Position numbers and translations under genes: made by a program. The notes beneath the pieces were generated by a model. That model worked only from the letters and a program-made list of their open reading frames with translations, searched no databases and was not told where the DNA came from. Shown here one piece after another: positions 1 to 53,629 of a stretch of 64,000 nt of DNA (positions are counted from its first letter, which is position 1; each line of letters begins with the position of its first letter). This DNA is from Halorubrum rubrum (lineage in GTDB: Archaea > Halobacteriota > Halobacteria > Halobacteriales > Haloferacaceae), in assembly GCF_024494685.1 (NCBI RefSeq), contig NZ_JANHDM010000004.1, positions 1-64,000 on the forward strand. Direction: 5' to 3'.

Positions 1-1
1 G

Positions 2-280
2 GTTGAAAAGGTGTCTGAGCGGGATACCTCGAAGTCGTGCTCGTGCTGTGGTCGAAAGCGTGACGCGAACCGTGTTGAACGCGGACTGTATGTCTGCGAT
101 GAGTGCGGTACAGTGGCGAACGCGGACGTAAACGGTGCAGAAAACATTCGGCAGAAAGTATCTCCGAGTTCACCGAATCTCTCGGTGAATAGGAGTAACG
201 GCTGGTTGGCACAGCCATCGGCGTTCCTGTTTGACACGGAAACTGGCGCATTCGCGCCTCAAGAACGGGTCACGTCGTAA
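2..280 (+). CDS. tnpB: TnpB (IS200/IS605, IS1341-type) C-terminal part, cut by window edge
   Basis: TnpB is the RNA-guided nuclease carried by IS200/IS605 elements. Only the last 92 codons are visible; the frame is open to the left edge. It contains the C-terminal zinc ribbon with paired cysteines (CSCC and, 16 residues on, CDEC), followed by the NADVNGAENIR segment that carries the last RuvC acidic residue. The tail GAFAPQERVTS is typical of haloarchaeal TnpB. The stop lies 70 bp before the element right end at 350. Whether the full protein is intact cannot be judged from here. Confidence 0.9.
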   Translation, partial: VEKVSERDTSKSCSCCGRKRDANRVERGLYVCDECGTVANADVNGAENIRQKVSPSSPNLSVNRSNGWLAQPSAFLFDTETGAFAPQERVTS

Positions 281-350
281 CCCACAATATCCCAACTCAG
301 CGGCGCAGTGCCGTGGGAATCCTCGCGCTTCAGCGCGGGGAGGATGTCAA
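236..350 (+). mobile_element. Right end of IS200/IS605 element (tnpB tail plus hairpin, ends TCAA)
   Basis: The last 45 bp of tnpB and the following 70 bp form the element right end. It holds the subterminal hairpin CCTCGCGCTTCAGCGCGGGGAGG (positions 321-343 region, arms around CTTCAG) and finishes in TCAA at 347-350, the type of right cleavage site known from IS608. This 115-bp stretch recurs with one mismatch (267 G versus 53028 A) at 52997-53111. In TnpB systems this region also encodes the guide RNA scaffold, so the guide here would begin at 351. Confidence 0.85.
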
Positions 351-50859: not shown

Positions 50860-51183
50860 TCAGGCGCGTCGCGGCATCCACAGTCCGTAGAGGATCGCCA
50901 GGAGTCCCGCGAGTTCACTCAGTTGCCCGACGCTATTAACGATCGGTACCGGCACGCCGAGCCAGAATCGCAGGATCACGAGAGCGGCGCCTGGGACACC
51001 GAGGATGAGCGCGAATCCGAGCGCGATGAACAGCATCGGTCGGCTTCGATTCCGGCGATAGCCGAGGTACGCGAGGTAGCTGATCGCCAAGCCGAGCGCG
51101 ACGGAGATCAATTCACTGTAGGTTCGAATACGGCTTAGCGTATCGAGATCGATCGACTGGAGCAGTAGTTCACGTGTGGTCAT
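50860..51183 (-). CDS. Small membrane protein paired with a winged-helix regulator
   Basis: The 107-aa protein has three hydrophobic segments (about 22-42, 48-72 and 84-104): LISVALGLAISYLAYLGYRR, LFIALGFALILGVPGAALVI and LAGLLAILYGLWM. It looks like the haloarchaeal small membrane protein family that accompanies ArsR-like regulators. Its ATG overlaps the stop of the regulator by 4 bp (ATGA). Possible role: membrane sensor or modulator of the regulator; this is inference from the pairing. Confidence 0.75.
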   Translation of the reverse strand: MTTRELLLQSIDLDTLSRIRTYSELISVALGLAISYLAYLGYRRNRSRPMLFIALGFALILGVPGAALVILRFWLGVPVPIVNSVGQLSELAGLLAILYGLWMPRRA

Positions 51184-51590
51184 CTGTTTTCGACGAAGCG
51201 CGTGAATCGGTCGGCCATCCGCTCGCGACGGGCGACCGTCGTTTCGAAGCCCTCGTCGGTGAGTTCCAGCGTGAGGCTGTGGAGTTGGGCTTGGTACACT
51301 TTGTAGTTCTTCCCGTCCGTAACCGGCTTGATCTCTTCCGACACGAGGTCGTGTTCTCTGAGGCGTTCGAGTCGGCGGTAGATCGTCGGCTCCGACGCGT
51401 CGAGTCGCGTACTGAGCTCGGACGCCGAACAGGGATCGGTTCTCGTTTCGATGAGAATGTGCCGGGCACAGTCGTCCGCGAGGAGGGCTGCGAGCGTCGC
51501 CGCGTCCGATCCGTCCGACACAACGTCTGCCACATCTATCCCGTTTCCCATAACCGTTCGGTGCGTGGTTTCGCTTGTGGCTGGCTTCAC
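51180..51590 (-). CDS. ArsR-type winged-helix regulator
   Basis: The frame gives up to 136 aa; a start at 51551 (MGNGIDVADVV) would give 123 aa and may be the real one. The winged helix covers about residues 35-100: LAALLADDCARHILIETRTD, CSASELSTRLDASEPTIYRRLERLREHDLV and a wing ending in KNYKVYQAQL. It is coupled to the membrane protein that follows (ATGA) and divergent from a CPBP protease gene, so both may answer to the same control region. Confidence 0.78.
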   Translation of the reverse strand: MKPATSETTHRTVMGNGIDVADVVSDGSDAATLAALLADDCARHILIETRTDPCSASELSTRLDASEPTIYRRLERLREHDLVSEEIKPVTDGKNYKVYQAQLHSLTLELTDEGFETTVARRERMADRFTRFVENR

Positions 51591-52864: not shown

Positions 52865-53246
52865 TCAACGGTCGATCGACCGCTGAACGTAGCTGACGGT
52901 ACAGCCGACGTCCACGAGGGCCGCCCCGGCGACGGCAACTAAAACCGCAGGCGTGTCCCCAGCGGTGAGAACCGAGACGGCGATCAGTGCCGTTACACGG
53001 AAACTGGCGCATTCGCGCCTCAAGAACAGGTCACGTCGTAACCCACAATATCCCAACTCAGCGGCGCAGTGCCGTGGGAATCCTCGCGCTTCAGCGCGGG
53101 GAGGATGTCAACGAGACGACGGGTACCGGGAACGACACCGTGTCATCGAGCATTCCGTGCCGGCGTGAACATCCGACCATCGTGATGCTCAGGGCGGTCA
53201 CAGCGATGCTCGAACCGATAACGGTAGACGTCAGATCGAGCGTCAT
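52865..53246 (-). pseudogene. Small two-helix membrane protein gene interrupted by a 115-bp element
   Basis: The minus-strand ATG at 53246 opens MTLDLTSTVIGSSIAVTALS and runs into the inserted element, where it stops. On the far side the frame resumes as VTALIAVSVLTAGDTPAVLV and ends in YVQRSIDR plus stop at 52865. Removing exactly 52997-53111 (115 bp) joins the halves in frame, giving 88 codons plus stop with two or three hydrophobic segments. It follows an ArsR-like regulator on the same strand after 38 bp, as the intact 107-aa membrane protein does at 50860. Confidence 0.82.
52997..53111 (+). mobile_element. 115-bp IS605-derived non-autonomous element, TTAC target and TCAA end
   Basis: The element matches 236-350 with a single mismatch. 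It follows TTAC (52993-52996) and ends in TCAA (53108-53111), the same pattern of left target and right end known from IS608-type single-strand transposition. It contains the end of tnpB and the right-end hairpin but no left end, so it must rely on a transposase elsewhere or arose by one-ended movement. Similar short palindrome-carrying IS605 derivatives are known from haloarchaea. Confidence 0.88.
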
Positions 53247-53284: not shown

Positions 53285-53629
53285 TCACTCGGAGTCGTCG
53301 TGAAACCGAACGACGAGTCGTTCGGTGGCGAGCGCGTAGACCGTCATCTCTCGACCCTTCTCGGAGTACCACGTTTCAATCGGTCTGACGAGTTCCGCTT
53401 CACAAAGTCGGTTGAGGTGGTATGAGACGTTCTGTACCGATTGGTCGACCGACTCGGCGATCTCGGAGGCCGTCTTCGGTTCCGATGTGAGCGTCCCCAA
53501 GATCTCCTGTGCTGACCTGGAGGACAGCATTTGGAGTACGTCGGTCGTCTCGTTTCGGTCGATGACGATGTTCGTTCGCTCACGAGGAGTGTGGGTGACT
53601 GGCGGTTGATGTGGGAAGGCGCTTGCCAT
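53285..53629 (-). CDS. ArsR-type winged-helix regulator
   Basis: The 114-aa protein has a winged helix at about 28-100: VLQMLSSRSAQEILGTLTSE, TASEIAESVDQSVQNVSYHLNRL and a wing TWYSEKGREMTVYALA. It is a distant paralog of the regulator at 51180-51590 and likewise precedes a small membrane-protein gene, here broken by the 115-bp element. It is divergent from the GbsR-like gene. Loss of its partner may leave it without a signal. Confidence 0.8.
   Translation of the reverse strand: MASAFPHQPPVTHTPRERTNIVIDRNETTDVLQMLSSRSAQEILGTLTSEPKTASEIAESVDQSVQNVSYHLNRLCEAELVRPIETWYSEKGREMTVYALATERLVVRFHDDSE

Follow-up and report, generated by a model that had tools for sequence, protein, structure and literature searches.

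Locus and features

The window analysed here is a 64,000-nucleotide stretch of the Halorubrum rubrum genome (contig NZ_JANHDM010000004.1, positions 1 to 64,000, forward strand). A 115-bp insert at 52997-53111, preceded by TTAC (52993-52996) and closing in TCAA, after which the sequence continues CGAGACG, lies between the two minus-strand halves of a small gene that follows a gene for a winged-helix regulator. The features of the locus, and of a related copy at the start of the window, are as follows.

1-350, plus strand: a further copy of the parent element, represented by its right part, with the tnpB C-terminus, the omega-RNA and the right end, which reaches to 350
156-341, plus strand: complete sot0042 omega-RNA of the copy at the window start (RF02656, 161.4 bits)
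52865-52996, minus strand: C-terminal part (43 codons and stop) of the interrupted gene
52993-52996, plus strand: TTAC, target and left cleavage tetranucleotide (CL), assigned from the sequence and the IS608 rule (PMC5934647)
52997-53111, plus strand: right-end remnant, 115 bp, of a tnpB-only IS200/IS605 element with IS608-type ends, assigned from identity to a copy on contig C24
52997-53041, plus strand: final 14 tnpB codons and stop (TETGAFAPQEQVTS, then stop), from translation in the parent reading frame
53006-53019, plus strand: internal hairpin GGCGC-ATTC-GCGCC, part of the omega-RNA fold from the DNA fold and RF02656 pairs, and a possible pseudo left end
53078-53081, plus strand: right-end guide GAAT, from sequence, with the layout of the IS608 right end (PMC5934647)
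53081-53102, plus strand: right-end hairpin, from sequence and fold, with the same IS608 layout (PMC5934647)
53108-53111, plus strand: TCAA, right cleavage site and final bases of the element, from the divergence point of full-length copies
53112-53246, minus strand: N-terminal part (45 codons) of the interrupted gene, which encodes an 88-aa membrane protein
53285-53629, minus strand: winged-helix (HTH_20/ArsR-like) regulator gene (Pfam HTH_20, 3.8e-11)

The interrupted membrane-protein gene

Excision of exactly 115 bp yields a 267-base minus-strand ORF, with its ATG at 53246 and its stop ending at 52865, that encodes 88 amino acids with no internal stop; with the insert left in place, the minus-strand frame shifts and runs into stops within the insert. 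The ORF begins 38 bp after the stop of the winged-helix regulator gene on the same strand, which is its probable operon partner. Restoration of the frame by itself has a 1 in 3 chance. A search across the order (394 genomes) returned one uninterrupted homolog (G408, E = 7e-19), a 94-aa protein from another haloarchaeal family, to which the restored protein aligns over its full length from the start codon (40-42% identity; BLASTP 1e-21, 40% over 89 columns). The junction, S45/V46, falls within a gapless block of this alignment, the lone one-residue gap being found 14 residues further on. A 97-aa paralog from the same genome (25% identity) is likewise gapless over 81-83 residues that span the junction. 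Because both homolog and paralog align without a gap across the junction, the restored 88-codon gene is, as judged from these alignments, a real one.

The 88-aa protein matched no Pfam family, and at the Halorubrum loci inspected no relative carries a conserved orthologous gene behind the HTH gene, other sequence being present there. Both results would suit an accidental frame, with the 115 bp lying in intergenic sequence, but homology running from start codon to end, the paralog and the GC content at the three codon positions (62/52/74%, in keeping with a haloarchaeal gene) refute this reading in practice. Assignment to DUF7521, the family of the neighbouring ORF at 50860, was also considered and dropped, there being no Pfam match. 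That ORF belongs to a pair at 50860-51590 (minus strand), 2 kb away, in which another HTH gene is followed by a DUF7521 small membrane protein in the same layout as the interrupted operon.

A sequence-only reading of this DNA had already held that the insert splits a small membrane-protein gene and that exact removal of 115 bp rejoins its halves as 88 codons. Both claims are borne out by evidence which that reading had not had, since the uninterrupted homologs align without a gap across the junction. The uninterrupted gene that it proposed to look for in related Halorubrum genomes has a counterpart in the one homolog of another haloarchaeal family, and no ortholog at the inspected Halorubrum loci.

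After removal of the insert the site reads TTAC/CGAG (a slash marks the junction here and below) within an intact gene and with no repeated bases, as for insertion 3' of TTAC without target duplication. The C at +1 agrees with the preference of IS608 for C after TTAC (PMC5934647), although among the related copies inspected G was commonest at this position, contrary to that preference. A search with the joined flanks (restored site TTACCGAG) found no match in the genus genomes or in viral contigs. The lack of target duplication that had been claimed is thus inferred from the homologs and the rule for this IS family, with no orthologous empty site found in the collections searched.

Relationship of the insert to IS200/IS605 elements

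At 100% identity the 115 bp match the terminal 115 bp of a full-length tnpB-only IS200/IS605 element (G000:C24:174731-174845, minus strand); their identity to window positions 236-350 is 99%. The C24 element extends upstream into a tnpB gene, as do loci L002-L020, and the TnpB of this parent family contains OrfB_IS605 and Cas12f1-like domains. Full-length relatives begin after TTAC (TCAC in one) with nGAGAATCGAGGAGAAAG-CCTCGCGCTTYAGCGCGGGG and end in GAAT-hairpin-TCAA; a copy on contig C25 of the same genome (L055) likewise starts after TTAC with a left end of nGAGAATCGAGGAGAAAG and a hairpin. All 20 of the 20 aligned full-length copies diverge immediately 3' of TCAA. The end signals of the parent family equal those of IS608, namely CL TTAC, CR TCAA, GL AAAG and GR GAAT (PMC5934647).

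The insert has the complete set of right-end signals (GAAT guide, hairpin and TCAA cut site). The true left end, with guide AAAG and hairpin after TTAC, was seen only in full-length and MITE relatives and is absent from the 115 bp, in which TTAC runs straight into coding sequence for the TnpB C-terminus. With only the last 14 tnpB codons present, neither tnpA nor tnpB is encoded. Read against its parent, the insert contains, besides these 14 codons, the right end and the 3' half of the gene for the omega-RNA (sotRNA). The parent resembles IS608 of Helicobacter pylori (IS200/IS605) in its TTAC left flank, TCAA cut, single hairpin per end and guides AAAG and GAAT at its left and right ends. It differs in coding for tnpB only, and from the 115-bp piece the left end is missing altogether, as are both genes.

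The IS605 origin and the TTAC and TCAA boundaries given earlier agree with these comparisons, and a recent event is supported by the perfect identity to the C24 copy and by the open state of both gene halves. Treatment of the 115 bp as an element with two ends of its own did not survive: the left end is missing, the inner edge lies in tnpB, and this form occurs once in 53 genomes of the genus.

TTAC occurs at 6.6e-4 per position in this GC-rich 64-kb window (about 1 in 1,500). Given that so rare a tetranucleotide abuts the inner edge, the left junction is very probably, on sequence grounds, the transposase cleavage site. At this edge the parent reads TTTGAC/ACGG and the remnant GTTAC/ACGG; because AC is common to parent and target side, the edge is ambiguous by 2 bp on sequence alone. 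Across the same point the parent continues TTTGAC/ACGGAAACTGGCGC.

An artefact of the draft assembly, with a full-length copy reduced by collapse to the right end alone, would accord with the several contigs of this genome that end within copies of the parent element. It is nevertheless highly improbable, as a collapsed copy would still join TTAC to the true left end, a 2-base overlap is too short for an assembler to bridge, and no contig end lies near the site (C20 = 208 kb).

Distribution of the inner edge

The sequence pattern at the inner edge was searched for in 53 genus genomes and was found at 39 sites in 25 of them. It is preceded by TGAC at 37 sites and TAAC at 1, and only the copy in the window has TTAC. 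Thirty of the 39 loci were inspected, and all 29 besides the window copy continue upstream into tnpB. As the edge elsewhere always lies within tnpB at inspected loci, the form in the window is unique and is no MITE. A MITE or PATE would be represented by multiple copies with the same two boundaries and would carry a palindrome at each end, or one fused palindrome together with the two termini; here there is one TTAC-edged copy among the 39 sites, with the right end alone, and a 115-bp MITE family is ruled out. The host gene is now broken, and the remnant can probably not move on its own.

Omega-RNA content of the remnant

The 115 bp cover positions ~80 to 174 of the RF02656 (sot0042) model and terminate at the right end. 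The remnant thus shares the 3' part of the model with the omega-RNA of haloarchaeal IS1341-type elements, and differs from the complete sot0042 RNA in having no 5' strands of the central helix. The match reaches 62.8 bits, short of the gathering score of 88, and its 5' half is unrelated flank; the complete fold is therefore not recovered, and a functional omega-RNA within the 115 bp is unsupported. The hairpin at 53006-53019 folds as DNA at -6.7 kcal/mol (z = -2.6), and its pairs occur in RF02656.

Six other loci (L124, L127, L129, L130, L134 and L140) are tnpB-free elements of ~340-376 bp that have both ends and are present in several copies per genome. Their sot0042-like RNA spans the whole model and scores 75-83 bits, again under the gathering score of 88. 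These elements are MITE-like and may encode guide RNA without a nuclease.

Origin of the remnant

The earlier interpretation took the locus as direct evidence that a 115-bp unit had inserted. Insertion of a full-length element followed by loss of its left part gives an identical sequence, and we favour this two-step origin, with a probability of roughly 0.6. A full-length tnpB-only element with IS608-type ends would have inserted 3' of TTAC in the membrane-protein gene, leaving the target unduplicated. Later, a single deletion would have removed the left end and almost all of tnpB. It would have started exactly at the TTAC cleavage site and stopped after the internal TGAC close to the tnpB stop, the two endpoints having AC in common. 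Its probable cause is a faulty excision or nick by transposase at TTAC, followed by rejoining to the internal TGAC, or else a microhomology deletion that began at the same point. Identity to the parent, the junctions, the missing left end and the restoration of the gene are all shown by the sequences, and from them we infer both the order of events and the enzyme responsible.

The two-base AC overlap is weak microhomology and counts against a deletion, and no strain with a full-length insertion at this locus was found in the collections searched. The only Y1 tnpA detected in the 98%-complete genome is interrupted, so the transposase step would be older, or the enzyme is missing from the assembly. 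This gene (L254, G000:C24:25506-26274) is split by ~325 bp of inserted DNA, and the tnpB beside it looks intact.

A second right-end-only remnant in the genome, L057 (50 bp, region of G000:C11:442788), reads TTAC/CAGCGCAG. Its site is uninterrupted in 11 orthologs, which read TTTC/GTCAT or close variants and not TTAC, and the parallel to the 115-bp remnant is therefore imperfect and suggestive only. Were right-end-only remnants regularly to keep a TTAC inner edge, a transposase-made deletion pathway would be indicated; the two TTAC-edged remnants of this genome, one of them imperfect, hint at such a pathway. A right-end fragment on a Halostagnicola plasmid was considered as a further parallel and rejected, being a longer remnant that keeps tnpB C-terminal sequence and has no TTAC edge.

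A one-ended insertion would dispense with the deletion. A transposase acting in trans would have taken TGAC/ACGGAAAC, together with the hairpin GGCGCATTCGCGCC of the omega-RNA, for a left end, cut out the final 115 nt in the form of a single-strand circle and placed it directly after TTAC. TGAC matches TTAC in three of four bases, the A-rich GGAAACT before a stable hairpin loosely resembles the AAAG and hairpin of the true left end, and the junction falls exactly at TTAC with no target loss. We nonetheless consider such an event unlikely: the hairpin lies 9 nt from the tetranucleotide, compared with ~18 nt in the true left end, it is already accounted for as part of the omega-RNA, and the inner edge of L057 is not the same. 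Moreover, the sequence is present in every full-length copy, yet no second 115-bp solo exists in the 53 genomes. That the terminal 115 nt form a minimal transposable unit, with the omega-RNA hairpin and the tnpB TGAC as a cryptic second left end, is accordingly a doubtful proposition. If true, IS605-type elements could release right-end-only pieces and insert them, which would bring the 3' part of the RNA beside new guide sequence.

In this class of element, TnpB is known to cut emptied sites that bear a TTAC-type motif, at a point ~15-20 nt beyond TTAC. An abortive gap repair, in which excision and a TnpB cut were followed by copying of the 115-bp right end from the sister chromosome and its joining to the left flank, would leave remnants of the right side only. 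Given that cut position, a junction exactly at TTAC needs extra trimming, and with no direct trace of such a repair we judge it very improbable.

Under the favoured origin, insertion after TTAC and loss up to the internal TGAC, the remnant belongs to an already known kind of haloarchaeal IS605 decay and is an ordinary scar of a known mobile-element type. Core deletions of haloarchaeal IS605 elements have been published with strain pairs as proof, including Haloquadratum elements that repeat-mediated deletion has reduced to 52-bp terminal-only forms, as well as partial elements that keep a piece of the tnpB C-terminus, e.g. HqIRS71 (PMC3119063). The 115-bp remnant resembles these PATEs and core-deleted elements in being transposase-free, in lacking a target duplication and in having a hairpin near its end (PMC3119063). 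In most of the Haloquadratum deletions the sequence lost lies between the palindromes of the two ends, and both termini remain (52 bp), whereas the remnant described here keeps the right end only and has the bare target TTAC as its left terminus (PMC3119063). It offers a clean example of a single-strand transposon that decays while the target cleavage site stays exactly in place, and it illustrates how a regulator-linked membrane-protein gene was lost.

Other short elements

Short forms of related elements were also observed. A 48-bp single-hairpin unit, TTAC/GGAGAATCGAGGAGAAAGCCTCGCGCTTCAGCGCGGGGAGGATGTCAA, is the left end fused to the right end of the same IS family and occurs at 52 sites in 27 of the 53 genus genomes (L144-L173 among them), exactly after TTAC in 27 of the 30 inspected. 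It resembles the 52-bp terminal-only forms of Haloquadratum, and could be self-moving or merely a deletion scar. In Halorubrum lipolyticum (G005; L026/L154) and Halorubrum saccharovorum (G067; L029) the unit lies just downstream of the same HTH gene that precedes the interrupted gene, in one of them at the stop codon of the HTH gene. With 48-bp units beside this gene in two relatives, the spot appears to have been struck independently at least three times.

Right ends with no recognised left end or tnpB were seen at L056, L132, L137, L204 (plus strand), L206 and L208. They have a common inner edge near GTAAACCACAATATCC, without TTAC and beside unrelated sequence; at L137 this edge is directly 3' of a small antitoxin-like ORF. 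A related short single-hairpin family in G000 (L243-L246 and L249) follows TATG, not TTAC, and carries GGCTAAAACCCCGCCC where the left guide region would be, which suggests a subfamily with another target.
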